NCBI GenBank assembly: GCA_030066555.1 | Contig: JASJBK010000002.1 | Coordinates: 1 to 32,172 of the forward strand | Source of the DNA: Halieaceae bacterium | GTDB lineage: Bacteria; Pseudomonadota; Gammaproteobacteria; Pseudomonadales; Halieaceae | Length of the DNA stretch: 32,172 nt | Direction of reading: 5' to 3' | In this document: in pieces, positions 11,988 through 31,882 of the stretch | How positions within the stretch are numbered: position 1 is the stretch's first letter | How the letters are laid out: every line of letters begins with the position of its first letter | Position numbers and translations under genes: made by a program | Notes under the pieces: model-generated | Seen by the model: only the letters and a program-made list of their open reading frames with translations | What the model was told of the DNA's origin: nothing | Databases searched by the model: none

Positions 11988-12914
11988 CTAGAGTTTGTGG
12001 GCCTTGGGCCAGCGCCTCTTCAGGCAAATCCACTGGTCGGGCTGTTCGCTGATCCAGGTTTCGAAATGGTGGTGCACCGCCTCGGTCATGGCGATCGCCT
12101 TCTCGTCCGTGCTGCCACTGTCCGGCACCGGGATCGGTGCGTACAGGGTGACCCGGTAGCGCGCTTTGCCGAGCCGCTCACCGCGAATGGGCAGCACGGC
12201 GCTACCCGTCTTCAGCGCCAGCCTGGCCGCGCTGGTATTGCTCAGGGCGTCGCGACCGAAGAAAGGCACCAGGGCGCCGGTGTCGAGGCGGGTATCCATG
12301 GCCATGCCGATGGAGCGGCCGGCGTGCAGTTCCTTGAGCAATGGTCTTACACCCGCATCGGTGGGTACCAGTTTGACCCCGAAGGACTCGCGCAGCTTGA
12401 ACATCTGCTCGCGCAGGGCGGCGTTTGATTCCGGCGCATAGATCACGCTGACTTCCAGGCCCATGTCCAGCACGATCAGGTTGGTAACCTGCCAGGGTCC
12501 AACGTGGGCCGATACAAATACGGCGCCGCCGGCATCCAGCGCCGCGCGTGCCGCGGGATCGACGATAAACTCTATGCGCCGGTCGCGCTCTTCCCAGATC
12601 TGCCCCAGCTTGATCAGCTCGGCGGCAGATTTGCCAAGGCTGCGGAATATCCCGCGCACTTTTTCATCGCGCCAGGCCTGGTCCCGGTCCGGGAAGGCGA
12701 TGGAGAGGTTGATGTCGGCCTTGCGGGCCTTGTCACCGTAGGGGCCCAGCCAGCCGAAAAGCGCCGCACCCCAGGCGCTGGCGCGCTCCGGCGACAGCCT
12801 GTCCAACAGCCAGAACACGGTATTGAATATACGCGCTTCCAGCCACTGCACGCAGCGCCCCAGCCAGGGCCAGGCTCGGGCTGCGCGCTTGGGTACCAGG
12901 TAGTACTCGGGCAT
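11988..12914 (-). CDS. LpxL/HtrB-like lysophospholipid acyltransferase, variant HX4Q active-site motif
   Basis: LpxL-family layout (AHVGPWQVTNL, GRSIGMAMDTRLDTGALVPFFGRDALSNT, HHHFETWISEQPDQWICLKRRWP). ATG at 12914; the listed ORF start at 13457 runs antisense into the neighbouring gene. Confidence 0.88.
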   Translation of the reverse strand: MPEYYLVPKRAARAWPWLGRCVQWLEARIFNTVFWLLDRLSPERASAWGAALFGWLGPYGDKARKADINLSIAFPDRDQAWRDEKVRGIFRSLGKSAAELIKLGQIWEERDRRIEFIVDPAARAALDAGGAVFVSAHVGPWQVTNLIVLDMGLEVSVIYAPESNAALREQMFKLRESFGVKLVPTDAGVRPLLKELHAGRSIGMAMDTRLDTGALVPFFGRDALSNTSAARLALKTGSAVLPIRGERLGKARYRVTLYAPIPVPDSGSTDEKAIAMTEAVHHHFETWISEQPDQWICLKRRWPKAHKL

Positions 12915-12934: not shown

Positions 12935-13594
12935 TCAGGCCTGTTGCGCGGGTCGCTTTGCGTCTGCGTCGGGCAGCGTGCCAAACACGTGGTCCCAGAG
13001 CGGGGAACTCACGCCGTAGCGACCGCCTTCGCCAGAAAAGTGGTGCTTGAGATGGTAGTGCTTGAGGTACTTCGCCAGCGGGCTGCGCATCGGGAAGTGA
13101 TGGGTGGCGTAGTGAATGTAGTCGTAGCACAGGTAGCCGATTATGAAGAACGCAAAAAACGGCTGTAGCCACGGCTGCGGTATCGCCAGCCCGAACAGCA
13201 GGTACAGGGCTGCCATGATCGGCACGCCGCCGGCGGGTGGCATGACCAGGCGCGTCTTGTCCTTGGGATCGTGATGGTGGTTGCCGTGGAAAATAAACAC
13301 GAACCACTTGCCGATGCGGCTCTTTGCCGGGAAGTGAAACACGAAGCGGTGCAGCAGGTATTCCGCCAGTGTCCAGGCGAATACACCAGCTGCCGCCATG
13401 GCCAGCAGCGCCCACAGGCCAAAGCCATGCACCGCCACGCTGCGCCACAGCAGCCACGCGGCCACCGGGCTCCAGAATACCAGTGGCGTAATCGGGTGTA
13501 CGTGGGACAGTCGCTCGAGGGTGTCGTTCTCGAACAGTCGGATGGACTGGTGCTCAGTCTTGGGCTGGGCGTTTTGTTGCGTATCAGGCTGCAT
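12935..13594 (-). CDS. Fatty acid hydroxylase, FA2H/Scs7-like (candidate ceramide N-acyl 2-hydroxylase)
   Basis: Histidine clusters HRFVFH, HGNHHHDPKDKTRLVMPP, YIHYATHHF, YHLKHHF...YGVSSPLWDHVFGT, with the order and flanking residues of FA2H/Scs7. Confidence 0.87.
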   Translation of the reverse strand: MQPDTQQNAQPKTEHQSIRLFENDTLERLSHVHPITPLVFWSPVAAWLLWRSVAVHGFGLWALLAMAAAGVFAWTLAEYLLHRFVFHFPAKSRIGKWFVFIFHGNHHHDPKDKTRLVMPPAGGVPIMAALYLLFGLAIPQPWLQPFFAFFIIGYLCYDYIHYATHHFPMRSPLAKYLKHYHLKHHFSGEGGRYGVSSPLWDHVFGTLPDADAKRPAQQA

Positions 13595-17843: not shown

Positions 17844-17872
17844 TTGGTTGGCGAATAAATCGGGGCTATACT
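17844..17872 (+). promoter_or_regulatory. Candidate sigma70 promoter for the GNAT/N-acyltransferase gene
   Basis: TTGGTT - 17 nt - TATACT, 38 bp upstream of ATG 17911; -10 is 5/6 to consensus, -35 is 3/6. Confidence 0.4.
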
Positions 17873-17910
17873 GCGCGCCCCACGCCTTCCGAGTACCGAG
17901 TAGAAAATCC

Positions 17911-19053
17911 ATGAACGGCCAGAGCGCCGCGTCCATCCGCCTGGAGACGCTGGAAACCCCGTCACAGCTTCGCGATTTCCTGGCGCTGCCTCATCGTCTA
18001 TACGCTGAAGACAGCGCCTGGATTGCTCCGCTGACCCTTGAGCAGCGCCAGCGCTTCTCGCCAAAGAACCATTTTTTCCAGCATGCACGCTGGCGCGGCT
18101 GGGTCGCCTATCGCGACGGCGTGCCGGTCGGTCGCATTACCGCCCAGGTTGATGAACTGCACCAGGCTCACCACGGCGACCATGTGGGTTACTTCGGTAT
18201 GGTCGAGGGAGACGATGACGCCGAGGTTTTCGCCGCCCTGTTTGAAGCTGCCGAGAGCTGGCTGCGCAGCGAGGGCATGCAGCGGGCCCGCGGTCCGCTC
18301 AACCTGCACATCAACGAGGAAGTGGGCCTGCTGGTCGACGGCTTCGATACCCCACCCTTCGTGCTGATGGGGCACGCCAGGCCCTTCTACGGAGAGCGCA
18401 TCGAAAGCCATGGCTATCGGGGCGCCCGCGACTTGCTGGCCTACCACATCCGGCCCGACTTCGAGGCGCCTCGAGTCATGACGAAGCTGGCCGAGCGGGT
18501 TTCGGGCCGTGTCACCGTGCGCGCGCTGGATCGCGCGCGGATCGACGCCGAGGCGGCAGTCATGCTGGAAATCTTCAACGACGCCTGGAAACACAATTGG
18601 GGCTTTGTGCCTCTGGGAGAAGAAGACTGGGCGGATACGGTCAAGACCCTCACCAGGCTGATGCCAGACGACTATATCCAGATCGCCGAGTACGACGGCG
18701 AGCCGGTGGCCTTCATCGTTGCCCTGCCCAATATCAACGAGGCCGCTCGGGACCTGAAGGGTCGCCTGTTCCCGTTTGGCTGGCTCAAGCTGCTGTGGCG
18801 CCTCAAGGTCCGGCACCCCCGGACCGCCCGGGTGCCGCTGATGGGCGTGAAGCAGGAATTCCAGCACTCTCGGCTGGGTCCCACGCTGGCCTTCATGGTG
18901 ATCGATGCAGTGCGCAAGGCCCTGCATGCCCGCGGCGTCGAAGACGTCGAAATGGGCTGGATACTTGAGGACAACGACGGGATGCGCAATATTATCGAGA
19001 CCATCGGCGGCCAGGCGTACAAGCGCTACCGCGTGTACGAAAAACCTCTCTAG
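17911..19053 (+). CDS. Large GNAT-family N-acyltransferase, candidate bacterial ceramide synthase (bCerS-like)
   Basis: ~380 aa GNAT-type protein (PVGRITAQVDELHQ, GYFGMVEGDDDAEVFAALFEAAESWLRSEGMQRARGPLNLHINEEVGLLVDGFDTPP, VEMGWILEDNDGMRNIIETIGGQAYKRYRVYEKPL); genomic context with spt/ACP/ligase/SDR. Confidence 0.8.
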   Translation: MNGQSAASIRLETLETPSQLRDFLALPHRLYAEDSAWIAPLTLEQRQRFSPKNHFFQHARWRGWVAYRDGVPVGRITAQVDELHQAHHGDHVGYFGMVEGDDDAEVFAALFEAAESWLRSEGMQRARGPLNLHINEEVGLLVDGFDTPPFVLMGHARPFYGERIESHGYRGARDLLAYHIRPDFEAPRVMTKLAERVSGRVTVRALDRARIDAEAAVMLEIFNDAWKHNWGFVPLGEEDWADTVKTLTRLMPDDYIQIAEYDGEPVAFIVALPNINEAARDLKGRLFPFGWLKLLWRLKVRHPRTARVPLMGVKQEFQHSRLGPTLAFMVIDAVRKALHARGVEDVEMGWILEDNDGMRNIIETIGGQAYKRYRVYEKPL

Positions 19054-19881: not shown

Positions 19882-19975
19882 TCCGGGCGGGCCGCGCAGG
19901 CACGCGTAGTCAGGGCGGGCCGCGGCGGGGCGCGCAGCCAGGCACGCATAGTCCGGGACGCGCAGTCACGGACGT
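19879..19975. repeat. Degenerate GC-rich direct repeat, about 3 units starting TAGTC(C/A)GGG
   Basis: Units at 19879-19906, 19907-19948 and 19949-~19975 share TAGTCCGGGCGGGCCGCGCAGGCACGC-type sequence; the first unit begins at the stop codon of the upstream CDS. Confidence 0.6.
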
Positions 19976-20862
19976 GGCAGCGTCAGCACCTGCGCGCCGG
20001 CCACCTCAAACTGTTCACCGGCGTCATCGAGTCGGCGCTGTTCTACGGTCAGGCGCCAACCCCCTTCTTGCCGCTCAACCCTGTAGCGGTTGTAGGCTGC
20101 GACGTCTGCGCCGTACAGTCCCCTGGCCGAAGCCGAGGGCACCGCGAACACCGGTACTTCGCCATCGGCGCCCGGCAGGTGGTCAAGCCGCGCCCGGTGC
20201 CCGTGTCCGTGTAACACCAGCTCAGCGCCGTGTGTGGCCAGGGTGTCAGCGACGGCGCTGGCATTGCGCAATGCCTTGCGCCACTTCTCGACTCCCGGCA
20301 CCGGCGAGTGGTGTACGTAGACCACGCGGAACTTGCCGCGGGTCGCATCGAGCAGCGCGCCAAGCTCTGATAGTTGGGCGGCGCTGACTTCCCCGCTTGC
20401 CATCAGTGGCGGTGTTGGAACGGCACTGGACAGGCCGATGAAGGCCAGTTCGCCGCGGATCCTCAGGCTCGGGAATCCCGCTTCCCGATCCGGGTCGGAG
20501 GCCATGTAATCCTGCCACAGGGCAAAGGTCTGCCCGGGGTCATCGCGCACCAGCGCGTCGTGATTGCCCGGGATTACCGCCACTGTGTCTGCCGCTCCCA
20601 GGCTTTCCAGCCAGGCCTGGGCCTGGCGGAATTCTTCCGGCAGGCCGGTGTGGGTCAGGTCACCGGTCACCAGCAGCTGGCTAAGCTCCAGGGTCGCCAG
20701 GTCGTCTGCCAGCGCCGACAGCACTTCGCGGCGGTGTTCAAAGCGACGCTTGCGCCGCCAGGAGAGATAGCTCAGCAGGCGCTTGCTGAGTAGCTGCGAG
20801 AGGCGCACGCCTCCGAGGTCCGAGAGATGGGGGTCGGAAACCTGCGCAAACTGTTGCGCCAT
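19966..20862 (-). CDS. Calcineurin-like metallophosphoesterase
   Basis: FAQVSDPHLSD, LLVTGDLTHTG, VIPGNHDALV, YVHHSPVPG, LHGHGHRARLDHLPG. Confidence 0.9.
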   Translation of the reverse strand: MAQQFAQVSDPHLSDLGGVRLSQLLSKRLLSYLSWRRKRRFEHRREVLSALADDLATLELSQLLVTGDLTHTGLPEEFRQAQAWLESLGAADTVAVIPGNHDALVRDDPGQTFALWQDYMASDPDREAGFPSLRIRGELAFIGLSSAVPTPPLMASGEVSAAQLSELGALLDATRGKFRVVYVHHSPVPGVEKWRKALRNASAVADTLATHGAELVLHGHGHRARLDHLPGADGEVPVFAVPSASARGLYGADVAAYNRYRVERQEGGWRLTVEQRRLDDAGEQFEVAGAQVLTLPRP

Positions 20863-20897: not shown

Positions 20898-23350
<2,453 letters not shown>

Positions 23351-23475: not shown

Positions 23476-23718
23476 TCAGGGATTGAGGCCCTGGACCTTC
23501 TGGGCCAGCTCACCGATGGTGTTTACATCCGGCAGGATGTTGAGGGGGATGGAGATATCGAAGTGATCCTCGATCTTCTCGATGAACTCCATGACTTCCA
23601 GGGAGCTCAGGCCGATGTCCGCCACCAGGTCGGTGGTTTCCGTGAGCTCAACGTTTTTCTTGTTCAGCGGCCCAAGCGCGCCGTACATGAATTCGAGGTA
23701 TTCGCGGTAGTCGGCCAT
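23476..23718 (-). CDS. Acyl carrier protein dedicated to the spt locus (AcpR-like)
   Basis: 80 aa; phosphopantetheine site region DIGLSSLEVMEFIEKIEDHFDISI. Confidence 0.9.
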   Translation of the reverse strand: MADYREYLEFMYGALGPLNKKNVELTETTDLVADIGLSSLEVMEFIEKIEDHFDISIPLNILPDVNTIGELAQKVQGLNP

Positions 23719-23794: not shown

Positions 23795-24868
23795 ATGCCA
23801 GCGATTTGGTTAATAGACGCTTACCGCGCAGGTGAGCGCGGTCAGGTGCGTGCGCTGGCAGATGCGGTGGCGGCGTCGCTGGGCTGGCCCTGTCGCCGCA
23901 TCGAGCTGGACTATCGCTCGCACATCATCCTGCCGCATATTCTTGGCGCGGCCAGTGTCAGCGGCATTACCGAGGCCTCGCGCCGGGCGCTGGCGCCGCC
24001 CTGGCCGGACCTGGTGATTACCTGCGGAGTGCGCAATGAGCCGGTGTGCCGCTGGATCCGCAAACAGTCCGGGGGGCACACCCGCTACCTGCACCTGGGC
24101 CGTCCCTGGGGTCGGCTCGACAGTTTCGACCTGGTGGTGACCACGCCCCAGTACCGCGTGCCCGATCGGGCCAATGTGGTCAACAACGAACTCACCCTGC
24201 ACAGCTTTGACGGCGATCGCCTGCAGGCCGCCGGTGCACGCTGGGCCGAGACCTTTGCGTCACTGCCGCCACCCTATGTGACGGTGAACATCGGTGGCGA
24301 CAGCGGGCCGTTCACTTTCGGGCCGAAGGCGGCTGAGCGGCTGGCGCAGGATGCATCAAGCCTGGCGCGGGAACTGGGTGGCTCGTTGCTGGTGTCCACC
24401 AGTTCGCGCACCCCGGTCGCGGCAGCAGATATCCTTGAGCGGAACATCGATGTGCCCTGTCATGTGTACCGCTGGCGCCCCGACGACCAGGACAACCCTT
24501 ACCTGGGGATGCTGGCGCTGGCGGAGCGGCTGGTGGTCACCGGTGACAGCATCGCCATGCTCTCTGAGGCCTGCGCCACCGGCAAACCTGTCTATATCTA
24601 TGACCTGGGCGGCATGCGCGAAGAGGTGCCCGTCGAGCGCGACTTTCGCTGGGGCGGGTTTTTCTACGGGCTGTTGATGCGCTGGCTCTGGCAGCGGCTC
24701 AGTCGCGACATCACCCTGGTACACCGGCAACTGTTGGCAGCGCAACGCGCCAGCTGGCTGGGCGAGGCGCCGCCCTCGCAGGCCGAGGCGCCGGTCAATG
24801 ATCTCGCCCGTGCAGTCAGTGCCACCCGGGCACTACTTGGCGAGCCCCAGGCTGTCGACCTCGAGTAA
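23795..24868 (+). CDS. ELM1 (DUF1022)-family protein, GT-B glycosyltransferase-like, paralogue 1
   Basis: IWLIDAYRAGERGQVRALADAVAASLGW, PDLVITCGVRNEPVCRWIRKQSGGHTRYLHLGRP, NPYLGMLALAERLVVTGDSIAMLSEACATGKPVYIYDL. Confidence 0.82.
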   Translation: MPAIWLIDAYRAGERGQVRALADAVAASLGWPCRRIELDYRSHIILPHILGAASVSGITEASRRALAPPWPDLVITCGVRNEPVCRWIRKQSGGHTRYLHLGRPWGRLDSFDLVVTTPQYRVPDRANVVNNELTLHSFDGDRLQAAGARWAETFASLPPPYVTVNIGGDSGPFTFGPKAAERLAQDASSLARELGGSLLVSTSSRTPVAAADILERNIDVPCHVYRWRPDDQDNPYLGMLALAERLVVTGDSIAMLSEACATGKPVYIYDLGGMREEVPVERDFRWGGFFYGLLMRWLWQRLSRDITLVHRQLLAAQRASWLGEAPPSQAEAPVNDLARAVSATRALLGEPQAVDLE

Positions 24869-26584
24869 ACGAGCGCTGCCGTCACTCAACTGGTAAACGT
24901 GGTCGGCGGCGCTGACCATGGCGCGGTTGTGAGAAATGGCGAGGATGGTGAGGTGACCCTTGAGCTGCTCCATGGATTCCCGCACTGCGGCCTCGCTGTC
25001 GGGATCGAGTGCGCTGGTGGCCTCATCCAGGATCAGCAGTTTGGGGTTGTTGACCAGGGCGCGGGCGATAACGATGCGCTGGCGCTGCCCGCCGGAGAGT
25101 TTGCCGCCCCGTTCACCCACCACCGTTTCCAGGCCCTCTGGCAGTCGCGCCACGAAGTCCCAGGCACCGGCGGCCTTGAGTGCACGTTCGGCGTCTGCTG
25201 TGCTGAGCGCCGGGTCGCCAAGGGTAACGTTGTGAAGGACGCTGTCGTGTAGCAATACGGTGTCCTGGGGTACGTAGCCAATCATGTCGCGCCAGGCGCG
25301 GATATCCAGTGCCTCCAGGGAGCGACCGTCGAGCTGCACTTCACCGCTGTCGGGGCGCAGCAGGCCGATGGTCAGGTCGATGATGGTGGTTTTGCCCGCA
25401 CCCGATGGCCCGATCAGGGTGGTCAGCGAACCGGCGGGAATTTCCAGGGTGAGCCCGTTGAAGACCGGGTGCTTGTCGTAGGCAAAGTTCACCTGGTCGA
25501 AGCGGATGCTGCTGTCGAGGCTTGGCGTGCTGCCGCCGTGCAGCTGTTCGCGGGCGTCATTGGCGGCGGCGATACTGTCCTGCATGGCCCAGTAGGCGCT
25601 CTCGCCCTGCACCAGTTTCTGGTACTGCTTCTGCACCTTGCCCAGGAAACTGAAGGCGCGGCCCAGGGTCACCACCAGTACCATCACTGTGGTGAGCGCC
25701 ATGCCGTAGCCCTCCAGCGCCACGTAGATGCCCAGGCAGATGAACAGTGCGAACATGAGCTCCTGGGCGGAATCCAGCACCGCGGCGCTGAGCACCTGTA
25801 CTCGCAGCGCCTTGTTGAGCCGCCGTGTTTCGTGGGTCAGCACGGTGTCTGCCAGGTGTTCCCGGGCCATGGCCTTGAGCGGTTTCACCGATTGGAGGGT
25901 GTCTGTGAGGTTGGCGATCAGCGAGGTCATCAGGTTGGTCTGTTTGCGGCCTGCCTTGCGGGTTATGCGCACCAGGAAGTGGGACAGCCCGATGACCACC
26001 GCACCGGCGCCGATGGCCACCAGCGACGCCTGCCAGGACAGGGCGAAGGCAACGGCGCCATAGATGACCGCCTGGATCAGGAAGGTAATGGCGGTGGCGC
26101 CGTGCACAAAAGAGGCGGAGGAGCGTTGGGCCTCCGTGGCCAGCGAATTGGTGAGCTTGCCCACCGGCTGGTGCAGGAAGTACTCCCACTTGCTGCGCAG
26201 CACCGCGCGCAGCATCTGCAGGCGCAGGTCGGTGCCGACCTGGGCCGCGGTATAGCCCACCTGGCGCTGGGCAATCAGCAGGAACACGCTCTTCAGGGCC
26301 ACGCCGGCGACGATGATCAGCAGCATATTGCCGAGGGTGGGCGCGATGCCGAGGCCGTCTAGGGTATTGAGCACTGCGGCCTCAAAGCCGGATTGCGCTT
26401 CACTTTGTACGCCCATGCCGAGTTCGGCGGCTGCAGAACTCGCCTCGCCACCCACGGCGATGTTCAGCAGCGGCAGCAACGCGGACAGGCCGACACCCTC
26501 GGCGATACCCGACAGCAGCAGGGCCAGCAGCATCAGCACGGTGTGCAGACGGTAGGCCCGGAAAAAGCTGAGCATGAGTTTCAT
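24833..26584 (-). CDS. MsbA-like ABC exporter (fused TMD-NBD)
   Basis: N-terminal TM region; Walker A GPSGAGKTT, Q-loop YVPQDTVLL, signature LSGGQRQR, Walker B LLILDEATSALD; ATG at 26584 rather than ORF start 26869. Confidence 0.9.
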   Translation of the reverse strand: MKLMLSFFRAYRLHTVLMLLALLLSGIAEGVGLSALLPLLNIAVGGEASSAAAELGMGVQSEAQSGFEAAVLNTLDGLGIAPTLGNMLLIIVAGVALKSVFLLIAQRQVGYTAAQVGTDLRLQMLRAVLRSKWEYFLHQPVGKLTNSLATEAQRSSASFVHGATAITFLIQAVIYGAVAFALSWQASLVAIGAGAVVIGLSHFLVRITRKAGRKQTNLMTSLIANLTDTLQSVKPLKAMAREHLADTVLTHETRRLNKALRVQVLSAAVLDSAQELMFALFICLGIYVALEGYGMALTTVMVLVVTLGRAFSFLGKVQKQYQKLVQGESAYWAMQDSIAAANDAREQLHGGSTPSLDSSIRFDQVNFAYDKHPVFNGLTLEIPAGSLTTLIGPSGAGKTTIIDLTIGLLRPDSGEVQLDGRSLEALDIRAWRDMIGYVPQDTVLLHDSVLHNVTLGDPALSTADAERALKAAGAWDFVARLPEGLETVVGERGGKLSGGQRQRIVIARALVNNPKLLILDEATSALDPDSEAAVRESMEQLKGHLTILAISHNRAMVSAADHVYQLSDGSARLLEVDSLGLAK

Positions 26585-26660
26585 GGAGCGGTTCCGGTGG
26601 GGCGCTGGGCGAAGCGCGGCATTATGCCGACAGCGGCAGCGCTTCTCAAACCGGCAGCAT

Positions 26661-27731
26661 TCACCAGCGCATCCTGCGCAAAAGCAGCAGGGCCGCCAGG
26701 AACACGATGACGGTGGGCAGGAAGGCCACCACGGGTACCGACAGGGAGAGCAACTGGCCCAGTGCGTAGATGATCTGCGCGCCGAGGTAGAAGAGGATGC
26801 CCACCAGGGCGCCGATGCCGAGATTGACACCGAAATTGCTGCTGCGCCGCGAGCCCAGGCTGGCGGCAATGGGTGTGGCCAGCAGCACCATGGCGCCCAC
26901 GGTCAGTGGCAGGGCCAGCTTCTGCCAGAATGCACCGAAATAGCTCTGCCATGCCTGGCCGTTGGCCTTCAGGAACTGGCTGTACTTGTACAGCACTGAC
27001 AGGGTCATGCTGTCGGCAGTCAGCGCCAGGGAGGGCAACTCGTCCTTGTCCCACATGTTACCCACCTCCAGCTCTGCGTGGCCGCGGGTGCGGAACACGC
27101 CATCCACAAGGTATTTTTCTCGCACCCGCTTGAGCAGCCAGCGCCGCCCGGAGCGGACTTCTGCAGCGCCCGCGTGCAGGGTGCGCACCAGCTGGCCGTC
27201 CTCGTCAAACTCGTAGACGTCGATACCGCCGGGTACGCCGTTCTCATCGAGCCGGGCAAGGTGGACGTAGCGGCGCTCATTGCGTGACCAGACGCCGCCG
27301 TCGGGAATGCGCACGTCGCCCCGGTAGCGCAGATACTGGCGTTCCTGTTCCGCATGCTGGTGCAGCCTTGGGGTGGCGAATTCGAGGCCGGCCCACAGCA
27401 GTGTCATCAGCAGCAGGGTAGGCAGCGCGATGGCGGTCAGCAGCGACCTGCGCGAGACGCCGGCGCAGCTGATCACGGTGAGTTCGTTGTAGCGGTCGAG
27501 GTTGGCCAGGGCCATGATGCTGCCCAGCAGCGCGATCACCGGCGCCAGTCCCACCAGCTGCTGGGGCAGTGTGTAGATCGTATAGCGGGCCACCGCCAGG
27601 GCGTCGTAATCGAAGCGGGTGCGCTCCAGTTCGGTGATGAAAGCAATCAGCCCGAACACAGCGCCCACGACCAGCAGCACCATCAGCCAGCCACGTACCA
27701 GGTTGGCGGCAATGTAGCGGCGCAGGATCAC
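26661..27731 (-). CDS. lptG: LptG-like permease (YjgQ family)
   Basis: ILRRYIAANLVRGWLMVLLVVGAVFGLIAFITEL, YTLPQQLVGLAPVIALLGSIMALANLDRYNELTVISCAGVSRRSLL; GTG start overlapping the lptF stop. Confidence 0.88.
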   Translation of the reverse strand: MILRRYIAANLVRGWLMVLLVVGAVFGLIAFITELERTRFDYDALAVARYTIYTLPQQLVGLAPVIALLGSIMALANLDRYNELTVISCAGVSRRSLLTAIALPTLLLMTLLWAGLEFATPRLHQHAEQERQYLRYRGDVRIPDGGVWSRNERRYVHLARLDENGVPGGIDVYEFDEDGQLVRTLHAGAAEVRSGRRWLLKRVREKYLVDGVFRTRGHAELEVGNMWDKDELPSLALTADSMTLSVLYKYSQFLKANGQAWQSYFGAFWQKLALPLTVGAMVLLATPIAASLGSRRSSNFGVNLGIGALVGILFYLGAQIIYALGQLLSLSVPVVAFLPTVIVFLAALLLLRRMRW

Positions 27732-28858
27732 GAGGCGTTCCTCGCGCGCCGGCTGCGCCGCAGGCGTGGCGGGTTGACCAGCAGCACCAGGATCACGGCG
27801 ACCACCGCATGGGCCGCCCACAGGCCGGGGAAGCGCGGCACTGTGCCCTGTTCGATGCCGGTGCGCATGACGGCGGTCAGGCTCAGCAGGCCGATGTAGA
27901 TGCCCAGGGCGATGAAGAAACTGCGCAGTCGCGACTCGCGCGGCGCGGTGCGTCCCAGCGGTACGGCCACCAGCGCCAGCAGCAGGGTGGCCAGCGGCGT
28001 GGTGATGCGCCACTGGTACTCGGCGATGTCCTTGGGCTCCGGGGAAAGTGACAGGTTCAGGGTGGTTTCCGCCTTGCGACGATACTGCTCGCGGGCCTCC
28101 TCGTTGGCGAGGCTCACCTCCATGCGGTTGAACTTCAGGGTGATGTCCTGGCGCTTGCGCTTGTCGAGCAGGTAGTTGTAGCCGTTGTGAAATTCCGCGG
28201 TCAGCGCCTGGCCCGGGTTGAGGGTGGGCAATGCCGCCGACTCGGCGATAATGATCTCCTCGCGACCCTTGCCCGGGTAATGGCGCTGCATGAATATTCC
28301 CTTGTGCAGGCCGCGTTCCAGGTCCAGGCCCTCGGCGATGAAGGTGTAGTCGCTACCCTCCATATTCACGAACTCTCCCGCTGCCATCTTCTTCAGGTCG
28401 AACTGGGCCGCGGCTTCAGCCTCGAGTCGGTAGCTCTCGCGGTAGGCCCAGGGGCGACCCAGTATGGAAATAACGCCGGTGATGATGGCCACCACTACCG
28501 CCAGTTTGAACACCGCTTCGAGAATCCGCGCACGGCTCAAGCCCGCGGCATACAGGGCGTTCATTTCCGCATCCCGGTACATGCGCCCGATGGCAGCCAG
28601 CACCGAGAAAAACAGGGCCGAGGGGAGCAGCACCTCGAGGGTGACCAGCGTATTGAGCCCTACCAGCTGGAAGGCGGTGAGCATGTCGAGTTTGCCCTGG
28701 GCCGCCAGGCCCAGCTGCACAGAGGCGGAATAGCCAATGAACACCAGCACCAGCAGGCCGAGGCCTGACACGAAGGGGCGCAAAATTTCCAGGCTGATGT
28801 AGCGATCGACGATCAAGCGAGCGGTCCCTGTCCGCAGCGGGGGGTGGTTCCCGCGCAT
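27728..28858 (-). CDS. lptF: LptF-like permease (YjgP family); start ambiguous (ATG 28858 or TTG 28816)
   Basis: IVDRYISLEILRPFVSGLGLLVLVFIGYSASVQL, LLPSALFFSVLAAIGRMYRDAEMNALYAAGLSRARIL, TTPLATLLLALVAVPLGRTAPRESR. Confidence 0.88.
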   Translation of the reverse strand: MRGNHPPLRTGTARLIVDRYISLEILRPFVSGLGLLVLVFIGYSASVQLGLAAQGKLDMLTAFQLVGLNTLVTLEVLLPSALFFSVLAAIGRMYRDAEMNALYAAGLSRARILEAVFKLAVVVAIITGVISILGRPWAYRESYRLEAEAAAQFDLKKMAAGEFVNMEGSDYTFIAEGLDLERGLHKGIFMQRHYPGKGREEIIIAESAALPTLNPGQALTAEFHNGYNYLLDKRKRQDITLKFNRMEVSLANEEAREQYRRKAETTLNLSLSPEPKDIAEYQWRITTPLATLLLALVAVPLGRTAPRESRLRSFFIALGIYIGLLSLTAVMRTGIEQGTVPRFPGLWAAHAVVAVILVLLVNPPRLRRSRRARNAS

Positions 28859-28987
28859 TGTAACGCAAGCCAGTAAGACCGACGCGGGTGGCAACCGGTT
28901 CCCAGAGGGGTGCATCTGGCCATTTTGGCCCGCTTGGCGCATAATTGCGCGCTTTTCGAGGCGGGGCCCCCCGTCCAATCCCATGAT

Positions 28988-29027
28988 GGCCTCCAGCCCA
29001 AATCCAAGAGAGGGCCTCCAGCCCAAA
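28988..29027. repeat. 15-bp direct repeat GGCCTCCAGCCCAAA in the 5' leader of sulfotransferase 1
   Basis: Exact copies at 28988-29002 and 29013-29027, 25-bp period. Confidence 0.7.
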
Positions 29028-29041
29028 CCAGAGAAAGTCGG

Positions 29042-30019
29042 ATGTTTAAGCTGAGCGACGGCGTCAAGAAGGCGCTGATTCTCATTCCCACGCAGCCCCT
29101 GCCCGCAAAAACCCGGGTGGCGCTGCGCCGCAAGCACCTGGCCAACCTGGAACTGGCCAAGGCCCACGCAGCGCAGTTCCTGATTATCGGTCATCCCAAG
29201 AGCGGCAATACCTGGCTCAAGGTGATGATCTCGCGGCTCTACCAGCTGCGTTACGACCTGCCCGAGTCCAAGCTGATCAACACTGACGAATTTGCCCGCA
29301 AGATCCCGGAAATCCCGCGGCTGGCCGCCACCAACGGCGTCTACAGTTACGAGGGCGAAGTCGGCAAGCTGCTGGCAGTGGGTGCACCGGATAATCCCCT
29401 GCGCCAAAAGCCGGTACTGTTTCTGGCCCGCAACCCGATCGACATCGCCGTAAGCTGGTACCACCAGTTCACCAAGCGCCAGTCACGCGCCAAGCAGGAA
29501 CTGATCAACCATTCCATCGAGCACCCCATCGACCGCAACACGGTGGAGATGTGGGAGTTCGTACGCCACTCCGACATCGGCCTGCCATTCCTGATCAACT
29601 ACCAGAACCAGTGGGCCGAGGCGATTGCCGAGCTGCCCCGCGGGCTGATGGTGCGCTATGAAGACCTGCGCGCCGACCCGGTGCCAACCCTGCACAGGAT
29701 CGTCCAGCACATGGGCGAGAACTTCTCCGAGGAAGAGGTGCGCGCCGCCGTGGAGTGGGGCTCCTTCGACAACCTGCAGAAGCTGGAGACCAGCGGCACC
29801 TTCAGCCAGGGTGGCATGAAGCTGGTCAACAAGAACGACCCCAGCACCTACAAGGTGCGCCGCGGCAAGGTCGGAGGGTACCGGGAAGACTTCAACGAGG
29901 CGCAGGTGACCGAGCTCGAGGCGCTGGTGCGCGACCTTATTTCTCCCCAGCTCGGCTATTGCCAGGAAAGCAGCCAGGAAAGCAGCCAGGAAAGCAGCAC
30001 AGAGAGCCGCGAGGACTGA
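29042..30019 (+). CDS. PAPS-type sulfotransferase
   Basis: 5'-PSB motif IGHPKSGNTWLKVMISRLYQL and 3'-PB motif LARNPIDIAVSWYHQF; C-terminal KVRRGKVGGYREDF resembles the SULT RKGxxGDW region. Confidence 0.9.
   Translation: MFKLSDGVKKALILIPTQPLPAKTRVALRRKHLANLELAKAHAAQFLIIGHPKSGNTWLKVMISRLYQLRYDLPESKLINTDEFARKIPEIPRLAATNGVYSYEGEVGKLLAVGAPDNPLRQKPVLFLARNPIDIAVSWYHQFTKRQSRAKQELINHSIEHPIDRNTVEMWEFVRHSDIGLPFLINYQNQWAEAIAELPRGLMVRYEDLRADPVPTLHRIVQHMGENFSEEEVRAAVEWGSFDNLQKLETSGTFSQGGMKLVNKNDPSTYKVRRGKVGGYREDFNEAQVTELEALVRDLISPQLGYCQESSQESSQESSTESRED
29963..29998 (+). repeat. 3 x 12-bp tandem repeat CAGGAAAGCAGC encoding (QESS)3 at the sulfotransferase C-terminus
   Basis: Exact copies 29963-29974, 29975-29986, 29987-29998. 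Confidence 0.95.
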
Positions 30020-30020
30020 G

Positions 30021-31142
30021 ATGCCGCCGCGCACCTGGGTCATCCTCAGTGACAAACGGGGCGACAATGGGCAGGTAGACACCATCGTCGAAGCCCTGGG
30101 CTGGCCGATAGAGCACAAGTATGTGCATATGAAGCCCGAGTGGGTGCTGGGAAAACCTCGCTATCGCCCCTCTCTCGATCACCTCGATCTCAGCCAGTCC
30201 GACGCTCTGGAAGCACCGTGGCCGGAACTTATTATCACCGTGGGCCGACGGCCCTCCATGGTGGCGCTGTGGATTCGCAAGCAATCCGGCAACCGTACGA
30301 AGATCGTGCTGGTGGGCAAACCCTCCGGACATATGCTGGACTTCTCGCTGGTGGTGGCCAGTGCCGAGAACCAGATGCCGCCGCTGCACAACTTCCAGGC
30401 CACCACGCTGCCGCTGATGCGTATCACCGCAGAGGATGTGGCCGAGGAGGCGGTGGCCTGGCGCGAGCGCTTCGCGGAGTTGAAACGGCCGCTGATCGCC
30501 ATGCTGATCGGTGGCGAAACCAATCCCTTTATCATGAACCGCAAGGTGGCGCGGGACCTGGTGGCCACCGCCCGCTGGGTGGTGGATGAACTGGGGGGTA
30601 CCCCCTATATCACCACCAGTCGTCGCACCACGCCGAAGGTGCTGGAAGTGCTGCGCGCCGAGTTGCCGGAAGAGGCGATCTACTTCGAGTGGTCAGCGGA
30701 CGCCACGGACAACCCCTACCGGGCACTGCTCGGCTCTGCCGACGGTTTTATCGTTACCGGCGACAGCGTGTCGATGATGGTGGAAGTCATCAAGCTGCAC
30801 AAACCGCTGGCGATCTTTCCGCTGCCCGGTGGCTGGCTGGGCAGGATCGACCAGCTGCGCCGTTCACTGGCGCACTGGCTTTTCCGGCCCAAACTGACGT
30901 CAGGTTTTGATCGCCTGCGCCACGCGGTGGCGAGGGGCGTGCACCACATCGACTACTTCAAGGTGTTGAGTGCCACCCGCGACTTCCGCGCTTTCCACAA
31001 GCTGCTGGTCGATAATGGTTACGCGGTGTGGGCTGGCCAGGCGTTTCGCAAGGACGAGCTTGCACTGCCCGACGATGTGGGCGTGGTGATCAAGCGGATT
31101 GAGGCGCTGTTTCCGGCAGACAGCCAGACAGGTTCCGCCTAG
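30021..31142 (+). CDS. ELM1 (DUF1022)-family protein, GT-B glycosyltransferase-like, paralogue 2
   Basis: WVILSDKRGDNGQVDTIVEALGW, PELIITVGRRPSMVALWIRKQSGNRTKIVLVGKP, LIGGETNPFIM, NPYRALLGSADGFIVTGDSVSMMVEVIKLHKPLAIFPL. Confidence 0.83.
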   Translation: MPPRTWVILSDKRGDNGQVDTIVEALGWPIEHKYVHMKPEWVLGKPRYRPSLDHLDLSQSDALEAPWPELIITVGRRPSMVALWIRKQSGNRTKIVLVGKPSGHMLDFSLVVASAENQMPPLHNFQATTLPLMRITAEDVAEEAVAWRERFAELKRPLIAMLIGGETNPFIMNRKVARDLVATARWVVDELGGTPYITTSRRTTPKVLEVLRAELPEEAIYFEWSADATDNPYRALLGSADGFIVTGDSVSMMVEVIKLHKPLAIFPLPGGWLGRIDQLRRSLAHWLFRPKLTSGFDRLRHAVARGVHHIDYFKVLSATRDFRAFHKLLVDNGYAVWAGQAFRKDELALPDDVGVVIKRIEALFPADSQTGSA

Positions 31143-31765
31143 CGCATCCCGAGAACGTTCTTCATGAAGTGGGTGCCGAAGCGGCTGATGCGCTGGGCTG
31201 CCACCGCCAGCGGGCTCTGGTCCAGGTAGTTGAGCTGCACCATGCGCCGCTCACCCACGAAGCGGGTGTGGCCGTGCCAGGAATGGTCGGTGCGGCGGAA
31301 GGCCAGCAGGGTGCCGCCGAGCGGCGCGACCTGGGCCGCGTAATCCCCGATATCGGACTTCGAGCGCAGCATGCGTAACTGGCCGTCCTCGTGATCCCAG
31401 CCCTCGTTGAAGTACACCAGCACAGTGATCACTTTGCTTTTGTGATCGGTGTGAATGTTGCCATCGGTGCGCTCGCAGAACTTGCGGACCGTCACCGTGG
31501 TCGGCAGGCTGGCGAGATCCATGTCGAAGCGCTCGCCGAGCACCTCGGCGAAGGCCTGGCCCTGGATTTCATCCATCAGCGCGCCGAAGGCCGGACCGTA
31601 GCTCAGGTTGTCCAGAGCGTGATTGGCGGCCGTGTCGATCGCCGGGTAGTCGGCGTTCACCTTCGCCAGGGCGTCAGCGGAAAGGAAGTCCGGCACCACC
31701 ATGAAGTCGAAGGGGTCGCTGTTGAGGTCCGCGCTGCGGACTGCGTCGAGGTTGATCAGAGACAT
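31139..31765 (-). CDS. 2-oxoglutarate/Fe(II)-dependent oxygenase
   Basis: HTD metal motif in GNIHTDHKSKVITVLVYFN and distal HSWHGHTRFVGERRMVQLNYLD; ATG at 31765. Confidence 0.78.
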   Translation of the reverse strand: MSLINLDAVRSADLNSDPFDFMVVPDFLSADALAKVNADYPAIDTAANHALDNLSYGPAFGALMDEIQGQAFAEVLGERFDMDLASLPTTVTVRKFCERTDGNIHTDHKSKVITVLVYFNEGWDHEDGQLRMLRSKSDIGDYAAQVAPLGGTLLAFRRTDHSWHGHTRFVGERRMVQLNYLDQSPLAVAAQRISRFGTHFMKNVLGMR

Positions 31766-31882
31766 GCGCGAATTGTACGGGCAGGCGCGAAACCGCAGCA
31801 AGTGAGAGGCCCGGTAATAGTGCGGCAAATCAAGAATTCCTGTATCATGCGCCGCCTTTTCAAGCCGGAGAATTCCCCGCCC

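Follow-up and report, generated by a model that had tools for sequence, protein, structure and literature searches.

The closest described relatives of the hydroxylase discussed here, which we call FAH, are yeast Scs7, animal FA2H and plant FAH1-2. FAH shares with these enzymes the PF04116 domain, the fold, all histidine motifs, the RLVMPP and GV(T/S)S..WD.VFGT signatures, and a ceramide pathway context. Among bacteria, FA2H homologues of myxobacteria have been connected to sphingolipid formation (Ring, Schwar and Bode 2009, cited in PMC10002949). As described, they resemble FAH in being bacterial and sphingolipid-connected, and the citing review (PMC10002949) mentions neither LpxL-type acyltransferase partners nor a loss of lipid A. 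For Caulobacter CC_0202, the reported activity is hydroxylation of the amide-linked acyl chain in bacterial ceramide lipids, a modification that is reported to affect sensitivity to polymyxin and colistin (PMC11324152). In contrast to FAH, a PF04116 protein, CC_0202 belongs to the DesA desaturase/hydroxylase family and is encoded away from spt. The CYP152 fatty acid 2-hydroxylases of Sphingomonas, H2O2-dependent P450s that yield 2-hydroxy acids in sphingolipid-bearing bacteria (PMC10002949), are of a family unrelated to FAH. A Pfam search of FAH found PF04116 only, with no LpxO, DesA-type or CYP152 hydroxylase domain.

Given the published myxobacterial FA2H homologues, the Caulobacter DesA-type enzyme and the Sphingomonas P450s, the enzyme class of FAH is not new. 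Our literature search returned no description of a module in which two LpxL-type acyltransferases, here named LatA and LatB, enclose such a hydroxylase, and nothing joining Halieaceae with sphingolipids. What is new here is the LatA-FAH-LatB module in lipid-A-less genomes, not the enzyme itself. The analysis also points to a specific candidate gene for ceramide hydroxylation, one shared by many marine and predatory bacteria.

The DNA analyzed (the window) is a stretch of 32,172 nucleotides from a Halieaceae bacterium (contig JASJBK010000002.1). Five proteins that it has in common with the ceramide clusters of E. coli BL21(DE3) and Caulobacter are encoded together: serine palmitoyltransferase (SPT; 22148-23350, minus strand), an AcpR-type acyl carrier protein (DIGLSSLEVMEF; 23476-23718, minus strand), a fatty acyl-AMP ligase (FAAL, an AasR-type acyl-AcpR synthetase), a CerR-type NAD-dependent epimerase/reductase, and a bCerS-type GNAT N-acyltransferase (17848-19053, plus strand, with its start probably inside the ORF). 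SPT scored 593 bits against the NCBIfam equivalog NF047599 (cut-off 500), and FAAL 793 bits against the subfamily model NF006624 (cut-off 600). Identities to the BL21(DE3) sphingolipid cluster are 53% for SPT, 46% for FAAL, 41% for CerR, 50% for bCerS (YghO) and 40% for the acyl carrier protein. The bacterial ceramide locus proposed in the preliminary description of this DNA is borne out by these matches. Other genes of the region travel with the core: an NTP-transferase (PF12804; 19063-19881, plus strand) is kept beside bCerS in most gammaproteobacterial and alphaproteobacterial loci, a metallophosphoesterase (19966-20862, minus strand) is kept beside SPT, and an ELM1-family protein (PF06258; 23744-24868, plus strand) is kept in the clusters.

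FAH lies within a row of minus-strand genes, in the order FAAL (17377-15608), CerR (15595-14672), LatA (14558-13584), FAH (13594-12935) and LatB (12914-11988, ATG at 12914). FAAL and CerR are separated by 12 bp, CerR and LatA by 113 bp, and FAH and LatB by 20 bp, while LatA overlaps the first 11 bp of FAH. This spacing suggests that the five genes form an operon read as one transcript. LatA and LatB are both PF03279 acyltransferases of the LpxL/HtrB type. The E. coli BL21 cluster has no FA2H-type gene and no annotated LpxL-type acyltransferases, whereas the window has both.

The FAH ORF, with its ATG start and stop within 12935-13594, encodes 219 amino acids. The FA2H-like motifs that drew attention to it are all present: HRFVFH, HGNHHHDPKDKTRLVMPP, HYATHHF, YHLKHHF and YGVSSPLWDHVFGT. 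PF04116 (FA_hydroxylase) was the sole Pfam domain found (E=1.1e-18, 68.4 bits against a cut-off of 31), well clear of chance, and NCBIfam had no useful name for any of 55 FAH orthologues. A PDB sequence search with FAH alone returned only yeast Scs7 (4zr1, 4zr0; E=2.4e-30, residues 32-212), and a profile of the 55 orthologues matched Scs7 at E=9e-40. The four histidine motifs of the di-metal centre align at Scs7 positions, with H82, H87, H103, H106, H107, H161, H165, H166, H181, H184 and H185 falling on Scs7 histidines; all 11 are invariant in the 55 orthologues, which come from many genera. An AlphaFold2 model built from these orthologues (pLDDT 82.5, pTM 0.81) predicts four long helices, fitting membrane spans, and several shorter ones. 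In the Foldseek comparison, which had been proposed alongside HMM searches, the model had Scs7 as its only significant match in the PDB (TM 0.75, rmsd 2.5 A, 40% identity). The same genome encodes four PF04116 paralogues with a sterol-desaturase-type motif pattern. The two that were tested matched zero PDB chains, yet their Pfam scores were above that of FAH. Within this genome, the match to Scs7 therefore belongs to FAH.

A phylogenetic tree placed the FAH clade apart from these four paralogues (support 96/87). Yeast Scs7, a single eukaryotic row on a long branch, joined a second bacterial FA2H type (98/88) and not the FAH clade, which suggests that FAH is an FA2H-like sister group that is not nested with the eukaryotic enzymes. 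The FA2H/Scs7 assignment of the preliminary description is supported by sequence, fold and motifs, with this placement as a qualification. The second type is 31-45% identical to FAH and occurs in some SPT-bearing Halieaceae (L126:7856-8635, L127:6387-7160 and L026). Two SPT-positive genomes without a close FAH orthologue (G101 and G241) have a distant PF04116 hydroxylase inside the ceramide cluster, and the one tested matches Scs7 (E=1.6e-12). In another gammaproteobacterial family, FAAL and bCerS have a different, distant PF04116 hydroxylase gene between them in the ceramide cluster (L112:9865-10593, L113:9127-9921). It appears that ceramide clusters have recruited related hydroxylases on more than one occasion.

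The N-terminal cytochrome b5 domain of FA2H is present in animals, fungi and protists and absent in plants, and is not strictly defining of these enzymes. FAH, unlike Scs7 and FA2H, has no fused b5 domain by Pfam, just as had been noted from its sequence, and a b5 gene (PF00173) was found neither in its own metagenome-assembled genome (86% complete) nor in any of the 18 FAH-positive genomes among 58 related ones. Four genomes do have a b5 gene, and all four are without FAH. No redox gene turned up among those ORFs of the window that were scanned with Pfam. The absence of PF00173 speaks against cytochrome b5 as the redox partner, so another donor is needed, in keeping with the separate electron donor predicted earlier.

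In the reading that we favor and consider likely, FAH is a membrane-embedded monooxygenase of the FA2H/Scs7 type with a di-metal centre (di-iron in vivo). Acting at the inner membrane with O2 and a non-b5 electron donor, perhaps of the ferredoxin or rubredoxin type, it would hydroxylate the amide-linked acyl chain at C-2 in the ceramide that the adjacent SPT-AcpR-FAAL-bCerS-CerR pathway supplies. LatA and LatB would then probably O-acylate the same sphingolipid, and the product may stand in for lipid A in lipid-A-less relatives. By analogy with FA2H, 2-hydroxylation of the ceramide N-acyl chain by FAH is a well-supported prediction; it is from the biochemistry of FA2H that we infer both the O2-dependent chemistry at C-2 and the preference for ceramide over free fatty acid as the substrate.

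The distribution of FAH follows that of ceramide synthesis. Among the 58 related genomes, an FAH orthologue was present in 18 of the 19 that encode SPT and in none of the 39 that do not (Fisher p=4e-14, a statistic that ignores shared ancestry). The sole SPT-positive genome without an orthologue is 66% complete. Within a single family, both states, SPT with FAH and no SPT, are scattered patchily over the genera. When 369 genomes spread over the class were sampled, three had a close FAH orthologue (E<1e-90), and all three were SPT-positive; 18 further SPT-positive genomes had none. FAH therefore implies ceramide, and the reverse does not hold. PF04116 includes carotenoid and sterol hydroxylases as well as sphingoid-base hydroxylases, and FAH could conceivably be a carotenoid or sterol enzyme that lies here by chance. 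Such an identity found no support in the window, which has no recognisable carotenoid or sterol gene, nor in the SPT-exclusive distribution, nor in the fold, which matches Scs7 only, and we regard it as barely credible.

A ceramide hydroxylase is also what the genomic neighborhoods point to. Scanning contigs with an alignment of 19 FAH sequences yielded 80 loci, 72 of which had one or more of the core ceramide genes in the flanking sequence examined. Where both flanks extended at least 9 kb, ceramide genes lay within 10 kb of FAH in 40 of 42 loci, and these linked loci span Halieaceae, Porticoccaceae, Thiohalobacter, Roseovarius and Bacteriovoracia. There are three arrangements: one in Halieaceae and Porticoccaceae, a second in Thiohalobacter/Thioalkalivibrio and Roseovarius, and a third in Bacteriovoracia, where FAH is near CerR-bCerS-SPT in a gene order unlike the others. 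Their common denominator is the ceramide core. Operon position, co-occurrence with SPT, and linkage that recurs, with differing gene orders, in three unrelated lineages together uphold the link between FAH and ceramide. Bacteriovorax stolpii, for its part, is said to contain a sphingophosphonolipid. In the tree, FAH of Roseovarius is nested among the Thiohalobacter/Thioalkalivibrio sequences, which suggests horizontal transfer from gammaproteobacteria to alphaproteobacteria. The cluster is borne by Roseovarius and close kin at L060-L063, L065-L070, L072, L075 and L077. One locus (L102, CAMAXE010000001.1) is titled as a Klebsiella pneumoniae metagenome-assembled genome; in the tree, its FAH is a neighbor of sequences from uncultured gammaproteobacteria, and the title is probably wrong.

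The neighborhoods also bear on the substrate. FAH might 2-hydroxylate the acyl chain before its entry into ceramide, as free fatty acid or acyl-AcpR, with the same final product. It shares its operon with a fatty acyl-AMP ligase, and free fatty acids are what mammalian FA2H is given in its one established in vitro assay, the in vivo substrate being unsettled (PMC10002949). However, FAH of Bacteriovoracia lies beside ceramide genes with no fatty acyl-AMP ligase detected nearby, and the structure of Scs7 was read as favoring ceramide over acyl-CoA (PMC10002949). Hydroxylation ahead of ceramide assembly thus seems rather unlikely to us. Another position on the sphingolipid is less likely still. 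FAH could modify C-4 of the sphingoid base, as Sur2/SBH-type members of its family would, or the O-acyl chains added by LatA and LatB, which flank it in most gammaproteobacterial and alphaproteobacterial loci. The motifs (HRFxFH, HGxHHxxPxDxxRLVMPP) and fold of FAH are instead of the Scs7 type, unlike the sterol-desaturase-type paralogues of its own genome, and no LatA- or LatB-type acyltransferases were detected at the Bacteriovoracia FAH loci. We consider hydroxylation at these other positions distinctly improbable and retain C-2 of the ceramide N-acyl chain as the preferred site.

In E. coli, enzymes of the PF03279 family add secondary acyl chains to lipid A. The same 11 genomes lack all three of LpxC, LpxB and KdtA (WaaA), and every one of them is SPT- and FAH-positive (G000, which is the window's own, G001-G003, G008, G009, G016, G021, G027, G030 and G044); completeness is at least 90% in nine of these. 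This group has apparently lost lipid A. Both FAH-flanking acyltransferases are kept in all 11 genomes, and in nine of the 11 they are the only PF03279 genes. As they are kept in genomes unable to make lipid A, LatA and LatB probably act on the sphingolipid, and the locus marks a sphingolipid system in which lipid-A-type acyltransferases outlast the genes for lipid A. LatA keeps the HX4E motif (HVCNWE) expected of active enzymes. In LatB, HX4Q (HVGPWQ) replaces it, a conserved departure from the catalytic HX4E that is seen in 52 of 53 loci.

The LatA-FAH-LatB gene order could also be taken to mean that FAH hydroxylates acyl chains of lipid A, in an LpxO-like role. This is contradicted for the genus of the window by the loss of LpxC, LpxB and KdtA from FAH-positive genomes, and all 39 SPT-negative genomes, almost every one of them with lipid A genes, lack FAH. 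We rejected the role, which is very improbable on this evidence.

In the 11 genomes, the sphingolipid probably replaces the lost lipid A. We suggest tentatively, as one possible route, that in lipid-A-less gammaproteobacteria the hydroxyl placed by FAH on the ceramide N-acyl chain might be the acceptor for acyl esters added by LatA and LatB, giving a multi-acylated acyloxyacyl-ceramide that would replace lipid A and be exported by the MsbA, LptF and LptG proteins of the cluster. A replacement for lipid A in the outer leaflet, and its assembly, are directly testable in cultured Halieaceae.

The hydroxy acids 10:0 3-OH and 12:0 3-OH are typical of lipid A. Pseudohaliea rubra, of the Halieaceae, has neither of them, and both are present in most of the relatives compared with it; 12:0 2-OH is one of its dominating hydroxy acids, found in it alone among six type strains, and the species resists both polymyxin B and colistin (PMC3679898). 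This chemical profile fits that expected of a lipid-A-less cell with 2-hydroxy-ceramide. Chromatocurvus halotolerans contains 12:1 3-OH and no 2-OH acid above 0.5% of whole-cell fatty acids (PMC3679898). It carries FAH (locus L049), and its profile counts against a simple prediction of 2-hydroxylation. Fatty acids of Roseovarius are mixed, with 16:0 2-OH in some species only. With one species fitting, one lacking 2-OH acids and one genus mixed, chemotaxonomy was rejected as proof of 2-hydroxylation.

Genes for an MsbA-like ABC exporter (24833-26869), an LptG-type permease (26661-28013) and an LptF-type permease (27728-29464), all on the minus strand and the first and last with starts probably inside their ORFs, adjoin the ceramide cluster of the window. 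They do so likewise in Thiohalobacter loci, where LptG is cluster-linked, and lptF and lptG copies also belong to the E. coli BL21 sphingolipid cluster. These transporters are candidates for the sphingolipid export machinery. Finally, several genes near the end of the window may tailor the lipid further. A 2OG-Fe(II) oxygenase (31139-31828, minus strand) is cluster-linked in Thiohalobacter and Roseovarius, where it adjoins the NTP-transferase and bCerS genes, and in L126 and L127 a relative adjoins the second FA2H type; a second hydroxylation is possible. A sulfotransferase (28910-30019, plus strand) and a second ELM1-family protein (30021-31142, plus strand) are kept in several clusters, and the lipid may possibly bear a sulfated head group.
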